From: Sipunculus nudus | Lineage: Eukaryota > Annelida > Sipuncula > Golfingiida > Sipunculidae | DNA length: 64,000 bases | NCBI GenBank assembly: GCA_026874595.1 | Contig: CM049318.1 | Span: forward strand, 42,450,456 to 42,514,455 | Direction of reading: 5' to 3' | Part shown: piece by piece, positions 3,341 through 58,702 of the stretch | Position numbering within the stretch: position 1 is the first letter of the stretch | Layout of the letters: each line of letters opens with the position of its first letter | Notes under the pieces: generated by a model | What the model saw: only the letters and a program-made list of their open reading frames with translations | Told to the model about the DNA's origin: nothing | Databases searched by the model: none | Program-made: the position numbers and the translations under genes

Positions 3341-3504
3341 TATTTTTGTGTAACAACACTTTTTCTTTGATATTAAGCACCTATATTACGACTATATAAG
3401 CCTGTGATGCCAAATATTACCAGACAGGAAATACTTTGATCCGACCCTTAGAATGGGCGTTCTGTTGTGACTGCCATCATGACTCAAGGCCCTATCAGTT
3501 TATT

Positions 3505-5010: not shown

Positions 5011-5193
5011 TACTTATTGTTTCACACACTTTTTAAGGGACTGAAAAGCATACTTTAATTTTCAATATATAAATAATAGGATATGGCATGTTACAAATGG
5101 CATTATTGAATCGTTATAATTTTTTTACATAAACGTAGGTTGTTCAGTGCTCAAACCAAATGTAATTATGACAAATAATGTTGAAGTATATTT

Positions 5194-5971
5194 TGTTACA
5201 GGTGCTCTTTTTATTGTGTGACACGGGCGTACCTCCTGTTGTGGCACTCGTGTCTGGCCGCGTATTACATTTTATGTTTAATCCGTACTGGTTGAACTCT
5301 CATTGTCATGTTTAGCCTTGGGTTTTCACGCCTGGTCGTGCGTCACGTGATGAGCCTGGTATGTAGATATACACAGAGAATTCTTGAAACGCGTGTTTAC
5401 TGTGATTGCGCAAGATCTTATAGACTTTTCGAGGAGTGGAATATTCTCGGCTTGGGGTGTGAAGGTATATAAAGGGACTGTGTTTTAGAACGGATACGCA
5501 GAAGCGTATGTCAGATTCTAGGACCTTTCTCCGACTAATGCGGCAATAATAGACTTTCAAAGACTTTCTCCTGGATTTTATGCATTTGGACTTCAGTTTA
5601 CTTTCTGGGTTGTTGCAAGAACTTTCCACTGGACTGTCATTCTCCAAGAGATTACATTTAAAGGACTTATCGTTGTGATGGTCTTGGTATCCAGGTATTG
5701 TGCACATACATTATTTTCTCTGTGATTGTATTGATTTGTTGTGATACAGTTGTTTTACTGAATAATTGTATTGATTTAGTGTATTGTAATGTTAGGGTTG
5801 TTTTAGGAATAAATTATAGTTATTTGTTAACAAAAAAACACTGACTTCTTTATTCATTCCCCTAGACATTTCACGCTGCCTAGTGTTACAAAATCTGATT
5901 CGTTTTTATCTCCATTACAAACTTTGTGTTCATCACGCATACGTGATCTGTTTATATTAGGTTCCGTAACA
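5194..5971 (+). mobile_element. Solo LTR of a retrotransposon, 778 bp
   Basis: The segment begins TGTTACAG and ends CCGTAACA, the short inverted termini typical of an LTR. It has a TATA box in GGTATATAAAGGG at about 5466 and a polyadenylation signal AATAAA near 5811. A homologous copy lies on the minus strand at 54178-54957, and a diverged one ends at 31351 with the same ATTAGGTTCCGTAACA tail. No primer-binding site, polypurine tract or gag-pol frame flanks it, so it is a solo LTR. Flanking pentamers (TATTT and ATATA) do not match exactly, so the target-site duplication is decayed or the edges are off by a base. The lineage is unknown; Ty3/Gypsy would be a guess. Confidence 0.8.
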
Positions 5972-15662: not shown

Positions 15663-16906
15663 TGGTCTCACACTTCTCTTCTCGTACAACATGGTTTAAT
15701 GGTGAAGGCCTGAGTGTCATGTTGTTATGGCTAGTGGAACTCTCACACTTCTCTTCTCGTACAACATGGTTTAATGGTGAAGGCCTGGGTGTCATGTTGT
15801 TATGGCTAGTGGAACTCTCACACTTCTCTTCTCGTACAACATGGTTTAATGGTGAAGGCCTGAGTGTCATGTTGTTATGGCTAGTGGAACTCTCACACTT
15901 GTCTTCTCGTACAACATGGTTTAATGGTGAAGGCCTGGGTGTCATGTTGTTATGGCTAGTGGAACTCTCACACTTGTCTTCTCGTACAACATGGTTTAAT
16001 GGTGAAGGCCTGGGTGTCATGTTGTTATGGCTAGTGGAACTCTCACACTTCTCTTCTCGTACAACATGGTTTAATGCTGAAGGCCTGAGTGTCATGTTGT
16101 TATGGCTAGTGGAACTCTCACACTTCTCTTCTCGTACAACATGGTTTAATGGTGAAGGCCTGAGTGTCATGTTGTTATGGCTAGTGGAACTCTCACACTT
16201 CTCTTCTCGTACAACATGGTTTAATGGTGAAGGCCTGAGTGTCATGTTGTTATGGCTAGTGGAGCTCTCGCACTTCTCTTCTCGTACAATATGGTTTAAT
16301 GGTGAAGGCCTGAGTGTCATGTTGTTATGGCTAGTGGAACTCTCACACTTCTCTTCTCGTACAACATGGTTTAATGGTGAAGGCCTGGGTGTCATGTTGT
16401 TATGGCTATTGGAACTCTCACACTTCTCTTCTCGTACAACATGGTTTAATGGTGAAGGCCTGGGTGTCATGTTGTTATGGCTAGTGGAACTCTCACACTT
16501 CTCTTCTCGTACAACATGGTTTAATGGTGAAGGCCTGAGTGTCATGTTGTTATGGCTAGTGGAACTCTCACACTTCTCTTCTCGTACAACATGGTTTAAT
16601 GCTGAAGGCCTGAGTGTCATGTTGTTATGGCTAGTGGAACTCTCACACTTCTCTTCTCGTACAACATGGTTTAATGGTGAAGGCCTGAGTGTCATGTTGT
16701 TATGGCTAGTGGAGCTCTCACACTTCTCTTCTCGTACAACATGGTTTAATGGTGAAGGCCTGATTGTCATGTTGTTATGGCTAGTGGAGCTCTCACACTT
16801 CTCTTCTCGTACAACATGGTTTAATGGTGAAGGCCTGAGTGTCATGTTGTTATGGCTAGTGGAGCTCTCACACTCCTCTTCTCGTACAACATGGTTTAAT
16901 GGTGAA
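15663..16906 (+). repeat. 75-bp minisatellite, about 16.6 units, open on both strands
   Basis: The unit is 75 bp with core CTTCTCGTACAACATGGTTT, then AATGGTGAAGGCCTGAGTGT. Units differ by only a handful of substitutions (for example TGAG/TGGG and GGT/GCT), so amplification or homogenisation is recent. The 25-codon period leaves a 416-codon plus frame (SHFSSRTTWFNGEGL...) and a 412-codon minus frame (CESSTSHNNMTLRPS...) open at the same time. Dual openness, lack of any domain and derivation from a family A neighbour argue against a real protein. Confidence 0.95.
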
Positions 16907-30663: not shown

Positions 30664-31351
30664 TGTTGCATGTATCTGTTTTGTTATGCGCAGGGTTTTG
30701 GGTAGGCATTCTGATTCGTGTTAAGCGCAAACCCAGTGCGCTGCTATAAATAACCGCATCTGCTGAACTCTCCCGGAGAGTAAACACATCGCTCGCTCGT
30801 CTGGTGTAGTCTAGAGGGATCCAGAATGGAAAATTCTGGGCTTGAGGTGAAAAAGTTATAAATAGGGGTGTGTTAAGAGGGGAGAAGGAGATAAAAATTC
30901 CAGCGGAAACGGAAGAGTGTGAGTCAGTTTGTGGACCTTACCGATAACTGCAGTGGTTTCAGATATTTAACGGACTTAATACAGATTTAATACGGACTGT
31001 CTCCAGTTTGTCTTTGGATTATTACTACTTACTTGGATTATTGGTTTTAAACTACTCGTGTTGAGCTGTGACAGTGGTGGTATCCAGATATCAAAGCTAG
31101 GATCCGGACACTCTGGTACTATTCATTTTATTTGTTATGCCTTGTAATTGTATTGATTAAGTGTATTGTTATGTTTGGATTGTTTTAAGAAAAAAATATA
31201 ATTATTTGTTAACAAAAAACCACTGACTTCTTTATTCATTCCCCTAGATATTTCACGCTGCCTAATGTTACGGAATCTGATCTTTTTATCTCCATATCAA
31301 AATGTGTGCTGATCACGATTACGTGATATGTTGTTATTAGGTTCCGTAACA
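30664..31351 (+). mobile_element. Diverged solo LTR of the same family
   Basis: The right half aligns with the LTR at 5194-5971. Shared blocks are TTCT(C/G)GGCTTG(G/A)GGTG, then a TATA box (GTTATAAATAGGGG at about 30855), TTGTATTGATT, TTATTTGTTAACAAAAAA, ACTTCTTTATTCATTCCCCT, TTTCACGCTGCCTA and the terminal ATTAGGTTCCGTAACA. The middle differs strongly, so this is a sibling subfamily. The left end is uncertain; TGTTGCATG at 30664 is my best candidate. No internal retrotransposon genes follow. Confidence 0.65.
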
Positions 31352-51868: not shown

Positions 51869-52054
51869 TTGTATCGAAGTTACAAAAACTACGCTCCGAT
51901 CTACACAATGGATCAGAAACAGTTTTATTATTGTTGCTTTTGTACAGAGAGAGAAATATATTCCAAGTGTATTTACAGTACTTCCATTCGCATGTAATCC
52001 AACCTGCATATTACTTTCAGTTGTAATTAAACGAATCTATTTAAGTATCAGTAC

Positions 52055-52669
52055 TTACAGTTGTTGACCATCCATTGTATTTAAATATCAGTATTTCCAG
52101 TTGTAGATCTTCCATTATATTTAAATATCAGTACCTCCAGCTGTAGACCATCCATTGTATTTTAGATTAAATGCGTCAAGCTGTAGACCATCCATTGTAT
52201 TTTTATATCAGTACTACCAGCTGTAGGCCATCCATTGTATTCAAAATTAAGTGCTTTCAGCTGTAGACCATCCATTGTATTTAAATATCATTGCGTCCAG
52301 CTGTAGACCATCCATTGTATTTAAATACCAGTACTTCCAGCTGTAGACCATCCGTTGTATTTTTATATCAGAACTTCCAGCTGTAGACCAAGCATTGTAT
52401 TTAAAATTAAGTGCGTCCAGCTGTAGACCATCCATTGTATTTAAATATCATTGCGTCTAGCTGTAGACCATCCATTGTATTTAAATATCAGTACCTCCAG
52501 CTGTAGACCATTCATTGTATTTAAATTAAGTACGTCAAGCTGTAGACCATCCATTTTATTTAAATCAAGTGCGTCAAGCTGTAGACCATCCATTGTATTT
52601 AAATTAAGTGCGTCAAGCTGTAGACCATCCATTGTATTTAAATATCAGTACTTCCACCTGTAGACCATC
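52055..52669 (+). repeat. 40-bp satellite array, left part
   Basis: The unit is approximately CCAGCTGTAGACCATCCATT followed by GTATTTAAATATCAGTACTT; about 15 units, some 37-39 bp (AATTAAGTGCGTCAAGCTG variants). The array stops at ACCATC where a TIR element begins, and continues in the same orientation and phase at 56486. Confidence 0.94.
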
Positions 52670-53164
52670 TGTTACGGCCCATAATGTAATAACCGGCCCA
52701 TAATGTAATAACGGCCCATATTGTAATAAAAACGACCCATAATGTAATAATCATACCCTGCCCATATTGTAATAAAACTGACCCATACTGTAATAAAAAA
52801 CGGCCCATATTGTTATAAATACGACTCATATTGTTATAATCATACCCTACCCATATTGTAATAAAAAAGGGAAGTGGGAAAAACGGCCCATATTGTAATT
52901 ATAATATGTTTAAGCTCAAGAATGAATCCCAAATCTAACAGGAGATATGTCGTTTGAGAATACCTTCTGAAATGACAGCCTTTTTAGTTCCTCATTGGTA
53001 TATGGGATGCAGTCATAATGGAAATCCAGTCAACATTTATGCTGTCTACGTATATTTAATCATAATCTTTTAAACTGCATTTTTTTTTACAATTTTGGCA
53101 TTTTTGCCCATTTAAGCCCCCACCATGCTGATTCAGTAAAGGTCGTTTTTTACAACAAAATAGA

Positions 53165-53276
53165 CAATTTCTACTACAATATTGACCATTGTTACAATAT
53201 GGGTCGTTATTACAATATGAGTCGTAATATGATACGAGTCATAATATGATAACCGTCCCAAATTGTAAAAATGGTC
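53165..53276 (-). repeat. Internal copies of the TIR module
   Basis: TTACAATATGGGTCGTTATT and following bases repeat the terminal CCCATATTGTAATAA motif in inverted orientation inside the element. Confidence 0.6.
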
Positions 53277-53277
53277 A

Positions 53278-53287
53278 ATATATATAT

Positions 53288-53345
<58 letters not shown>
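53278..53345. repeat. (AT)n microsatellite
   Basis: About 65 bp of TA/AT dinucleotides with two short interruptions. Confidence 0.93.
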
Positions 53346-53347
<2 letters not shown>

Positions 53348-54177
53348 TATACTAACCAAAGAAAACCCCTAGCAACAGGCGAATGGGATTGGGTGAGGCA
53401 TATTGTTTAGATTCATTTTGTAAATGGCGACATTTTTTATTCATTTAAGGCAACGGCATTTACATAATGCTATGAATAGTAATTAGCAAAAATAGTAAAT
53501 AGCAATATACCATATGACTGACAAAGTAACTAGGGATCAAACTTTACTCCTTCCCTTTTCCCACGCATTTACTATTACCGATCATTTGCGGGTAAAGGGG
53601 GGGGGGGGGGGGGTAGGTGTTTGACCGTGAGGGGTGGAGGTGGGGCAGGGGTAGCGGGTTAGGGTGGAGAAGGCTGAGGGAGGCTTCCCTGCGATCGCTC
53701 GTCGATTGCAAACATCTGGTTTTTCATGGATTGTACAAACAGTTGAAATAATTACTGGGAGGCTCTCTCCATGGCTCAGATGGTGTCGTTCGGTAGTCTT
53801 TATAGGTCTTTATAGTTGTTCGTCGATTCTTTAGGTAGACACCTTGTTCGATTAAAAAAAAAATGTTTTTTATACTACTGAGTTAAACCTCTGAAGGATG
53901 GTTCCGGTATAAGGTATATATATTTTTTGTGGATGTAATCGCTTTTTGTGGATATATCTATCTCGGTTTGGAGCACACGCTAAGTGTAATTATATAATAT
54001 CCTGGTGTCAGGTAACTACCGCACCTGCGGGTCCTGGATGTGTAATCGTCCCCATTACTGAGTCATAACATTGAGGAACTGGCCAAATTTTGCATTCGTT
54101 TGTGGTACAAACGTGATACATGGCTGTAGGGCACAGCCTTCTTATTATGCAGAGCGCTCACCCTGGATGGGGGCCGA
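53346..54177. other. No gene seen, interior of the TIR element
   Basis: Includes a 17-base G run at 53597-53613 and GT-rich sequence. No transposase-like frame is found on either strand. Confidence 0.5.
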
Positions 54178-54957
54178 CCATGACAAATTTTGTAATGGAG
54201 ATGAAAAAAAAATCAGATTCTGTAACACTAGGCAGCGTGTAATGTCTAGGGGAATGAATAAAGAAGTCAGTGTTTTTTTGTTAACAAATAACCACAATTT
54301 ATTCTTAAAACAACCCAAACATTACAATACACTAAATCAATAAATTATACAGTAAAACAGCGGTATAACAACAAATCAATACAATCACACAGTAAAATAC
54401 ACAAAGTGCACAGTACCTGGATACCACCACCATCACAACGATAAGTTCTTTAAATGTATACTCTCGAGGAACGACAGTCCAGTGTAAAGCTCTTGTAACA
54501 ATCCAGAAAGTAAACTGAAGTCCAAATGCATAAAATCCAGGAGAAAGGCTGAAGAAAATCTATAATTGCCGCACTCGTCGGATAAGGTCCCAGAAACTGA
54601 CACACGCTTCTGCGTCCGCTGGAAATCTTCTCTGCTCTGCTGTTCTCCCTCGGCTCTAAAACACAGCCCCTTTACATACTCTTCACCCCAAGCCGAGAAT
54701 TTTCCACTTCTCGAACAGTCTTAAAGATCTTACACAACACAGTAACCGCGCGTTACAGAAATCATCTAGAAGAACACCGCTGTGTGTCTCTACATACCAG
54801 GGTCCACACGTGACTCACGACAAGGCGAGAAAGCCCAAGGCTAGCATGACAACGAGAGTTCAACCAGTACAAATTAAACTGCGAATGTAACAAACGGCCC
54901 GGCGAGGGTGTCACAACACGAGTTACGCCCGTGTCACACTAAAAGATTACTGTAACA
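54178..54957 (-). mobile_element. Solo LTR, minus strand, truncated 3' end
   Basis: On the minus strand this begins TGTTACAG at 54957 and follows the LTR at 5194-5971 for almost its whole length. Shared blocks are GTGTGACACGGGCGTA, ATTCTCGGCTTGGGGTG, a TATA-like GTATGTAAAGGGG, AATAAA, and ACTTCTTTATTCATTCCCCT. Similarity ends at about 54178, some 45 bases before the expected GTAACA, so the 3' tip is lost. It lies inside the 3.8-kb TIR element. Confidence 0.8.
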
Positions 54958-55084
54958 ATATGGAGCATCGTGTTATTACTCGGAGTTTCACGCCGTTGCC
55001 GGTGTCGGCATCCGGGCGATCTTTTAACCTGCTCTACCTTAGCTGTATCGAGCTCTATACTGCAAGCACTGGACCTACTTAGGA

Positions 55085-55085
<1 letters not shown>

Positions 55086-55180
<95 letters not shown>
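55086..55180. repeat. (AT)n(GT)n microsatellite
   Basis: About 48 bp of TA followed by about 45 bp of GT dinucleotides. Confidence 0.95.
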
Positions 55181-55183
<3 letters not shown>

Positions 55184-55299
55184 TTCACAATTTTCGTGAT
55201 TGATTTTCATTTTTCATATTTCTTTTTATTAATTAGCAATTAGATTTTATTTTTTTAACTGCAGTTTATTACTTTCAAATTCATTAGTTGAGGATGAGG

Positions 55300-55560
55300 A
55301 TATTTATGAACAGCTGCAGAACTACTGCAGAGTACCAGGCCTTGGTTGGGGTCGACCGTGAACACTCTCATGGCTCCTCTGGTGATACCGGTACTCGAAC
55401 CCGCGATATATGCACTAGGAGTCATGTGTGCTGTCGAGACCATGGACCCCCGGTAAAATGCAAAGTTTACCAAGATAATATTTTGCAAGTTATTAACGTA
55501 AATGCGCCTATACGCCTTTAATTTTAACATGTTGGACCGATTGAAATTTTGTATTCTAAT
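55300..55560 (-). mobile_element. SINE-like element, relative of family C
   Basis: On the minus strand, GGGTTCGAGTACC (plus 55390-55402) resembles a Pol III B box. It is followed by GGAGCCATGAGAGTGTTCAC and GGTCGACCCC, which also occur in decayed form at 2.3 kb. The GGTAAAATGCAAAG block is shared with both family C copies. The A box is not clear, so tRNA origin is probable but not shown. Confidence 0.5.
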
Positions 55561-56274
55561 TTTGAAGAAATATAAATATTAAATATTGAACCTCTCTACA
55601 GTTTGACTACATAACGCAAAGACATAAGGGAACAGTTTTTCAGGAACAGTAAATCCTCATTGTTTGTGAAAATTGCCTCCAAATGTCCTCTTTACATTGC
55701 ATATTAAAAAAATATCCAAATAATGGAGGGAGGGGTATGGGAGTGGGATGCCCCCTCCCGTACCCTCCCCTTGAACCTGTTACTAACCTTAATGAAACCA
55801 TGGTTCACAATTGAATAAACAAAATCATATTATCATACACTAAAAGATAACGTATTAGAACAATAATAAAAATAATTATAATTATAATATATTTATATAT
55901 ACATATATACATATACACGTATATATAACGGTTTTCATAGTACCCATATATGCATCTTAGCGCCCCCCCCCCCCCTTTTCGAATTTCTGGATCCGCTACT
56001 AATTATGGCCCCCTACCCTCCCTCAATCCTGGCTTTATATATATATAAATTAACTTTTTCAAATACTTTATCACCCTATAACACTGATTCAACAAAAGGA
56101 TAACCATGAATCATGGCCGTATTTCGCTCATATTAGCTTGGTCACCGTTTTAAACAGATAGGCATTATGTCATCCAGTGGTTTTTCATACTTGTATGTTC
56201 ACTTACACATTCGTGTCATGAGAAGTCAATATATGAATTGTCTAAGTTAATTTGCATGGAATTTGAATTATAAA
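55561..56274. other. No gene seen, interior of the TIR element
   Basis: AT-rich sequence with GGGAGGGG/CCCCTCCC inverted blocks near 55725-55770 and a 13-base C run at 55963-55975. GGATCCGCTACT near 55990 resembles the end of a widespread GGATCCGC-type repeat. No frame is supported. Confidence 0.45.
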
Positions 56275-56485
56275 ATTATTGGCCTTCTTACCCACCTGCG
56301 ATTTTATTACAATATAGGCCGTTTTACCCACTTGCGATTTTATTACAATATGGGCAAGGTGTGGTTATTACAATATTGGCCGATTTTTATTACATTATGG
56401 GCCATTATTACATTATGGGTCGTTTTTATTACAATATGGGCCGTTATAACATTATGGGTCGGTTATTACATTACGGGTCGTAACA

Positions 56486-57130
56486 CCATCCATTGTATTT
56501 AAATTAAGTGCGTCAAGCTGTAGACCATCCATTGTATTTAAATCAAGTGCGTCAAGCTGTAGACCATCCATTGTATTTAAATATCAGTACCTCCAGCTGT
56601 AGACCATCCATTCTACTTAAATATCAGTACCTCCAGCTGTAGACCATCCATTGTATTTAAATATCAGTACCTCCAGCTGTAGACCATCCATTGTATTTAA
56701 ATATCAGTACTTCCAGCTGTAGACCATCCATTCTACTAAAATATCAGTACCTCCAGCTGTTGACCATCCATTGTATTTAAATATCAGTATCTCCAGCTGT
56801 AGACCATCCTTTGTATTTAAATATCAGTACTTCCAGCTGTAGACCATCCATTTTATTTGAATATCAGCACTTCCAGCTGTAGACCATCCATTGTATTTTA
56901 ATATCAGTGCTTCTAGCTGTAAACCATCCATCTATTTAAAAATCAGTGCTTCCATCTGTAGACCATTCATTGTATTTAAATATAAGTGCATCTAGTTGTA
57001 TCCATTCCACTGTATTTTTATACCAGTGCTTCCGGCTGTTCACCATGTATTGTATTTTATATCAGTTCTTCAAGCTGTAGACCACCTATTGTTTTTAATA
57101 TCAGTGCTTCCAGCTGTAGAGCCTCTACTG
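56486..57130 (+). repeat. 40-bp satellite array, right part
   Basis: Continuation of the 52055-52669 array in the same orientation. The first units carry the AATTAAGTGCGTCAAGCTG and AATCAAGTGCGTCAAGCTG variants also found in the last units left of the insertion. Units decay toward the right edge. Confidence 0.94.
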
Positions 57131-58702
57131 TATTTTAATATCCTCTAGCATATACACTCCCCATATTACTCCCCAGTATCCAACAAACAAGGATCTGTCT
57201 GCGTGGAAGAACATTTTTTTAACTACTCATTGCTCGGGGTAGAGTCATATAATGTTTCCCTATATGTGAACATTGCCAGTATAGGCTGTATTAATAACTC
57301 CACTCGATTTTATTACAGACAACACTTGCAGCAGCAAAACACACAATAATAATCATTACCACTAATGGAAATTTCCGGGCGAGCTTTACTGGAGAACAAA
57401 CACATTCTACCTCCTCCGCTGGAGAGCCGGATCGCCGTATAACCAGACCATCCATGAAGCAATGGATAAGAAATAACCAGGGACAGAATTTCCGCCTTTT
57501 TCAGAGAGGGCCTGAAAATCTTGGCTTTGAATCTTGTCAGACAGCCGTACACGTGTTATTAGCGCCTGTTTAGAATAATTAGGGTACAGTTACGGACCTG
57601 TTCGCCTGGATGGCAGGCTGAAACAGGTCGTGGAATTAGGTGGCGTGAAAACGGAATAACATTTATGTCTAAAAAAGGAAGGAAAAAAAGGTCTTTGTCG
57701 TTAAATTTTCAGGTCGCCATGCATATATTATCCATATTGTTGCGGGTGTGTGTCCGGGGGGGGGGGGGGGGGGTTTGCGATCCTTCGACGATTTCTCTTT
57801 CTTTTTCTCCTTTCCTTTAGTGTTTAGACTTATACATATACTTGGTACTTTCAAATGAATACAGAGATTCCTGTCGATGTAAACAGAATACAGACACCTG
57901 TTTTTTTGTATTCAAAATACAGAGGCACCTGTTTACAGGACAATAATTGTCGACATAGAAGACAGAGAAACATAATTGTTTGTATAAGGGCGCCTGCAGG
58001 ATTTAAACTCAATCACTGATCTTCGCATTGTGCCGCTAGTCGAAAAATAAACTTGTGTGGTATATTTGGGGTTATTGTATCACTGTTTGGCCATGACAAA
58101 AAAAAAAATAAAACCCCTAATTATGTGAAAATTAGACCAGTCATCCCAAAATGACAGAACTGATAGACGCATGTACCGAAAATCAGGCTGGGGGGACATA
58201 ATGGACAGAGAATGACTTTTGGTAACAGGGGCTGCATGAATATAAAGTGTTGGCCATTTCGGGTTTGATATTGATCCTGAGACGTGACCTTTGGGCTGAT
58301 CGTGTAGGTGCGTCCTCCCTCCTCCGGACACGACTTACGGAGACCTAATTTGCAAGCATCTTACTAGGCAGATCTGCCTCCACTGGCTGTGTAGTTGTGA
58401 CTCTGGCTCCGGCAGTAGAGACCTATTATAGCTCATAATGGACCAGATCCCTTGTCTAGCCGACTGCAAAAGGACCAGTAACTGTTTAGTGATTAGCTAA
58501 TTCTCCACCACATGAATCACAATGGATCTGCTGAACGACCGGGCTGTACTGTCAGCTATAGGGCTGGGTATCGATCAGCCTTTTTGGTACAATACGTATT
58601 GCGATTCACTTAAAGGGATACCCGATACGTATTGACGAACGCTAATTTTTCATTGTGATTTTTTTTTTCAAAACTAAGTGTTCATATCTAATAAAAAGAC
58701 CA

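Follow-up and report, generated by a model that had tools for sequence, protein, structure and literature searches.

Unequal arrays of a 15-bp module mark the two ends of a large non-autonomous transposon family in Sipunculus nudus

The described elements closest in their tips and target site duplications to the transposon studied here are found among the Ginger elements. According to the available excerpts of their description, Ginger1 and Ginger2 share TGTNR tips (PMC2836005). Ginger1 makes 4-bp duplications, of which 75% are CCGG and 24% CCGT/ACGG, has terminal inverted repeats (TIRs) of 40 to 270 bp, and is reported to have non-autonomous copies with shared ends; animal Ginger2 makes 4-bp duplications in RTATAY targets and has TIRs of 45 to 180 bp (PMC2836005). 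The Dictyostelium elements TDD-4 (3,839 bp, TIR of 260 bp) and TDD-5 (3,783 bp, TIR of 297 bp), which were placed in Ginger2, make 5-bp duplications (PMC2836005), and a second source, likewise available in part, puts the Ginger2 duplications at 4 or 5 bp (PMC10045372). Here, we compare these systems with an element found in a 64,000-nucleotide stretch of Sipunculus nudus DNA (contig CM049318.1, positions 42,450,456 to 42,514,455, assembly GCA_026874595.1), which we call the window and to which positions refer unless a locus or contig is named.

Further superfamilies enter the comparison through excerpts of two papers. IS481EU, from parabasalids, has duplications of about 4, 15, or 25 bp and TIRs mostly shorter than 50 bp, and IS3EU/GingerRoot has a 6-bp duplication and mostly TA..TA tips (PMC10045372). 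hAT5 makes 5-bp duplications, and Transib belongs to the CMCT clade, with 2- to 5-bp duplications and elements that mostly end in CA..TG (PMC12730594).

The element and its genomic family

The element occupies positions 52670-56485 (3,816 bp), starting with TGTTAC and ending with GTAACA. Its outer arms, the L-type end on the left (52670-52751, plus strand, modules 1 to 4 of the array described below) and the R-type end on the right (56404-56485, minus strand), are inverted, 82 nt long each, and 95% complementary. The pentamer CCATC abuts the left tip at 52665-52669 and adjoins the right tip at 56486-56490. The flanks belong to a 40-bp satellite, broken into a left part (52038-52669; Tandem Repeats Finder period 40, 15.9 copies) and a right part (56485-57142; period 40, 16.6 copies), and rejoining them with a single CCATC restores an unbroken satellite unit in the 39/40-bp register, the unit spacing running 40, 40, 40, 39, 39, 39, 40, 39, 39, 40, and so on. 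The initial annotation had proposed a TIR transposon inserted into the satellite at 52665-56490, and the inverted ends, the CCATC on both sides, and the satellite restored on removal agree with it; its boundaries are exact, with the duplication counted in.

The tandem modules, the simple repeats, and an LTR-like (long terminal repeat) piece inside the element could be taken to indicate that the structure is no transposon of this kind and is a rearranged satellite, an LTR-type insertion, or a Helitron insertion. Such an origin is barely conceivable in view of the inverted ends, the exact ends with 5-bp duplications at unrelated sites, and the restored empty site. We rejected a rearranged satellite on the exactness of that empty site, and an LTR element because the ends are inverted and not direct. 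The window element is almost certainly a copy of a non-autonomous TIR DNA transposon.

The genome searched was the window's own (1.43 Gb, 153 contigs). A 23-bp tip pattern with up to two mismatches matched 364 forward and 362 reverse sites, 726 in all, with positions listed for 100 of them; the reversed control pattern matched none in either direction. A search with 101 bp of the left end gave 855 candidates, of which 40 loci were scored, and 20 of the 39 loci other than the window were taken as 10-kb pieces, 17 of them with both ends. These 17, the window copy, and six copies from pairs of exact tips (2.9 to 3.7 kb) form the measured set of 24 two-ended copies. All 24 have TIRs at precise ends. 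Forty-one of their 48 ends start with TGTTACGACCC, six with TGTTACAACCC, and one, the left end of the window element, with TGTTACGGCCC, so that the copies have the common tip that the initial annotation expected of a family. Its expectation of 4- to 5-bp duplications was borne out: in 22 of the 24 copies the duplication is perfect and exactly 5 bp long, compared with 7 identical 5-mers in 552 control pairings of flanks from different copies, and it is off by one base in L010 and by two in L014. The hundreds of dispersed tips represent a large family of non-autonomous elements.

Module arrays and the pairing of unlike ends

The ends are built from a 15-bp module, CCCATAATGTAATAA, which matches the window 19 times at up to two mismatches, every time inside the element, whereas 100 shuffled versions gave 0.54 matches on average; tandem modules in the TIRs had been part of the initial annotation. 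Counted at up to three substitutions, the arrays extend inward beyond the 82-bp arms. The window copy has 10 modules on the left (52678-52901, plus strand; element positions 9, 28, 46, 67, 92, 113, 135, 156, 181, and 218) and 9 on the right (56268-56477, minus strand). Across the measured copies, L ends typically carry 12 modules, starting 9, 28, 46, 67, 92, 113, 131, 153, 171, 192, 217, and 253 bp from the tip; this count holds in 19 of 24 copies, the remaining five having 10, 11, 11, 14, and 18. At R ends, the typical module starts are 9, 28, 46, 67, 85, 107, 132, 168, and often 204; the count is 8 in 13 copies, 9 in 8, and 5, 7, and 10 in the remaining three. Positions 9, 28, 46, and 67 are thus common to both ends. 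The measured copies each combine an L end with an R end. The steps mostly measure 18 to 25 bp, about two helical turns, and the innermost about 36 bp. The distinctive result of this analysis is that the two ends carry unequal arrays whose modules are largely fixed in position.

Exact sub-patterns typical of either end matched 111 L sites and 133 R sites genome-wide, with 100 of each listed. The pairing set comprised the 100 listed R sites, which extend from C1 to C12:52.5 Mb, together with 83 L sites from that range; the 17 listed L sites outside it were excluded. Among these listed sites, 46 pairs face inward within 15 kb, all of them L-R (one L site is counted in two pairs), with no L-L and no R-R pair, and no pair on C1-C12 faces outward. 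The implied element length is about 1.46 to 1.81 kb in 38 of the 46 pairs.

The target profile was derived from the 22 sites with a perfect duplication, each read from the L end. Within the duplication, C occupies the second position in 17 sites and the fifth in 14, and T never occurs at the first; A stands three bases upstream of the duplication in 17 of the 22. The profile is GC-leaning and reads roughly A-A-R, then S-C-N-K-C for the duplicated bases, then Y-N-T.

It is likely that this non-autonomous family is mobilized by a cut-and-paste mechanism or a related DDE reaction, with the transposase supplied in trans by another element. The modules are quite probably transposase-binding sites, a reading that is strengthened by their fixed positions. 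Several observations weigh against this picture. No transposase was seen, which leaves the enzyme, the chemistry it uses, and its attachment to the modules as proposals. Three of the 20 loci (L013, L020, and L028) have a single end within about 9.7 kb, and a further 5 kb past L020 contained no tip. Because the copies were selected for close similarity at the left end or for exact tips, the conservation of the ends is overestimated (98.9% for the left end and 95 to 96% for the less biased right end). The module cores are only slightly more conserved than the spacers (0.983 versus 0.973 in 20 copies at the R end and 0.994 versus 0.974 in 23 copies at the L end, copies with indels being excluded), a small excess that alone is no proof of binding sites. 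Two pairs of exact sites have the same orientation, one L-L pair 8.9 kb apart and one R-R pair 2.3 kb apart. Finally, common descent alone can explain the L-R pairing, so that a requirement for unlike ends is something we only infer.

The same-orientation L-L pair lies at C3:40492421 and C3:40501275 and has no R-type partner among the sites listed. The single tips at L036 and L050 continue as family sequence for 89 and 113 bp, respectively, before giving way to unrelated DNA, and represent truncated ends or a different interior.

Interior and surroundings of the element

No stop-to-stop frame in the 24 copies exceeds the 153 residues of one in L015, and the longest in the window element has 107. 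Ten frames from the window copy, L011, L014, and L034 matched no Pfam family at an E value of 0.1.

L011 and L014 match the greater part of the window element at about 91 to 98%, and each contains about 0.7 to 0.8 kb near element position 3366 that the window copy does not have. All three share a solo-LTR-like piece (54183-54961, minus strand), which is related to window positions 5190-5927 (80%) and to parts of 30820-31307. The flanks of the three copies differ from each other, indicating that the piece travelled with the element. L010, L015, and L028 do not have it and hold some tens of bases of other sequence at its position, so that it is no simple clean insertion. The stretch near 5190-5927 itself appears to be tipped by TGTTAC...GTAACA.

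At 53140-53281 lies a decayed block in which inverted modules meet forward modules and which, matched to a model of an R tip fused to an L tip, shows no gap at the joint. The block looks like two ends in direct contact, with no base between the tips in the window copy, L011, and L014, and four bases are missing in L010, L016, L020, and L030-L034. The block prompted the idea of a circle intermediate, which is unsupported, as an exact genome-wide pattern for fresh tip-to-tip joints with 0 to 12 bp between the tips gave no match.

The Rfam search of 52600-56600 gave only six matches, all below the family cut-offs and located at two AT/TG-repeat stretches, and simple repeats also occur inside the element. 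Inspected by eye, 55290-55450 resembles a reversed tRNA-type promoter box, perhaps a remnant of a short interspersed element (SINE); ARAGORN found no tRNA in the window.

Elsewhere in the window, positions 15666-16906 hold a 75-bp tandem repeat (16.5 copies, 97%) that is open for more than 400 codons on both strands, as is possible for a repeat whose unit is divisible by three. The one-ended copy at L013 lies beside an NLR-like gene (L013:1542-3938), in which Pfam recognizes a frame with a NACHT domain followed by a frame with leucine-rich repeats.

Affinities, transposase, and mechanism

The initial annotation called the element a non-autonomous Ginger-type transposon. The first part stands, with no frame longer than 153 residues in 24 copies. 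The Ginger assignment is not supported as worded: the defining Gypsy-like integrase, which in Ginger1 comes with GPY/F and additional domains at the C-terminus and in Ginger2/TDD combines an H2C2 zinc finger with a DDE core, was not observed, and the duplications are not those of Ginger1 or animal Ginger2. Judged by the sequence of the tips and the length of the duplication, the nearest described elements are those of the TDD branch of Ginger2, a resemblance and not a membership. The tips TGTTAC and GTAACA conform to the TGTNR...YNACA pattern of Ginger2 and TDD, the 5-bp duplication is that of TDD-4 and TDD-5 and also of hAT5, and the TDD TIRs of 260 to 297 bp and length of 3.8 kb are similar to the end arrays and length of the element. 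In contrast, TDD-4 and TDD-5 encode an integrase-like transposase, which was not found here, and the excerpts of their description mention neither module arrays nor L/R asymmetry (PMC2836005).

On the strength of these shared features, a Ginger2 element of the TDD branch, whose autonomous partner would encode a Gypsy-integrase-like transposase, deserves consideration as a possibility, albeit at less than even chances. Against it, animal Ginger2, which shares the TGTNR tips, duplicates 4 bp in RTATAY according to the description at hand, unlike the 5-bp GC-leaning duplications here, among which TATA occurs in none of 22. Moreover, no integrase could be linked to an end. The integrase domain rve (Pfam ID PF00665) is abundant in the genome, with 4,779 first-look candidates, of which the best 150 were scored. 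We compared 145 of these 150 matches (C1-C17) with 196 end sites, hand-picked from 300 listed rows of the tip, L, and R searches after dropping near-duplicates, and left out five matches on small contigs that had no listed end site. The nearest match lies 28.8 kb from an end, which is a weak negative because both lists are partial.

The search for an autonomous partner by other routes was likewise negative. None was found among the 24 two-ended copies, and sixteen loci with an unusual second module yielded no transposase. The interiors of L036, L038, L040, L044, L050, and L051 differ from that of the family in some or most of the 1.5 kb examined; five frames of L036 had no Pfam match above the cut-off, and L050 has no frame longer than 74 residues from position 1610 on. 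The five strongest rve matches lie on the small contigs C106, C110, C118, C128, and C135, with scores well above those on large contigs; the small-contig matches are possibly bacterial sequence in the assembly.

A Ginger1 element is very improbable. The TGTNR tips and the TIR range of 40 to 270 bp agree with it, and one of the 22 duplications (L035) contains ACGG; but the Ginger1 duplications, as described in the excerpts, are 4 bp long, those here are 5 bp in 22 of 24 copies, 21 of the 22 have none of its motifs, and CCGG occurs in none. We rejected Ginger1 on the length and sequence of the duplication. IS481EU resembles the element in the TGT...ACA tips of some of its families and in having non-autonomous families without a known partner (PMC10045372, in part); it differs in duplication length and in its mostly short TIRs. 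On duplication length, both IS481EU and IS3EU/GingerRoot were rejected.

Another known superfamily with 5-bp duplications, such as hAT5 or Transib, is an unlikely source. TGTTAC tips are not typical of hAT. The duplication lengths given in the excerpts would fit both hAT5 (5 bp) and the Transib clade (2 to 5 bp), but CMCT elements mostly carry CA..TG tips (PMC12730594).

A further, tentative explanation is an undescribed superfamily or branch, in which an integrase-fold transposase would assemble on asymmetric multi-site ends, by analogy with Mu and Tn7. The combination of TG/CA tips, a 5-bp GC-leaning target, and fixed unequal arrays is unlike the superfamily descriptions compared, as far as their excerpts go. 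No matching superfamily description was found in the available parts of PMC9587614 and PMC10294476, and literature searches gave nothing for the 17-mer of the module, only unrelated titles for TGTTACGACCC, and nothing for 5-bp target site duplications in molluscs. A mismatch to the descriptions in a few papers is a weak argument. Subterminal repeat arrays, furthermore, also occur in known superfamilies.

An integrase-like transposase is the likeliest enzyme because chemistry of the retroviral-integrase (rve) type typically goes with TG...CA tips and a stagger of 5 bp. In the mechanism that we propose, a separate element would supply the transposase, which would recognize the 15-bp module as its binding site. 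Several subunits may then line each end at a spacing of roughly two helical turns, the unequal L and R ends would be brought together, and the TG/CA tips would be linked to a GC-leaning target at positions staggered by 5 bp.

The bacterial elements Mu and Tn7 have several transposase sites per end, unequal ends, and a 5-bp duplication. The likeness in these three features is an analogy of mechanism only, as Mu and Tn7 differ in being bacterial and autonomous and in having other tip sequences. One speculative and rather improbable extension of this analogy is that the family represents a eukaryotic lineage of Mu/Tn7-like design, an undescribed superfamily or branch whose integrase-fold transposase would multimerize on two obligatorily different arrays of 15-bp sites (12 versus 8 to 9, at fixed positions) and use a 5-bp stagger at GC-leaning targets. 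If true, a Mu/Tn7-like lineage would have hundreds of ends in one 1.4-Gb genome.

What had been the impression of a single copy is now a defined family whose ends, target site, and number of tips have been measured. It offers a clean natural case, in a large genome, of transposon ends that are both asymmetric and multi-site. Should the arrays prove to be true binding platforms, an ordered, Mu/Tn7-like multi-site assembly of eukaryotic integrase-like transposases would become testable.

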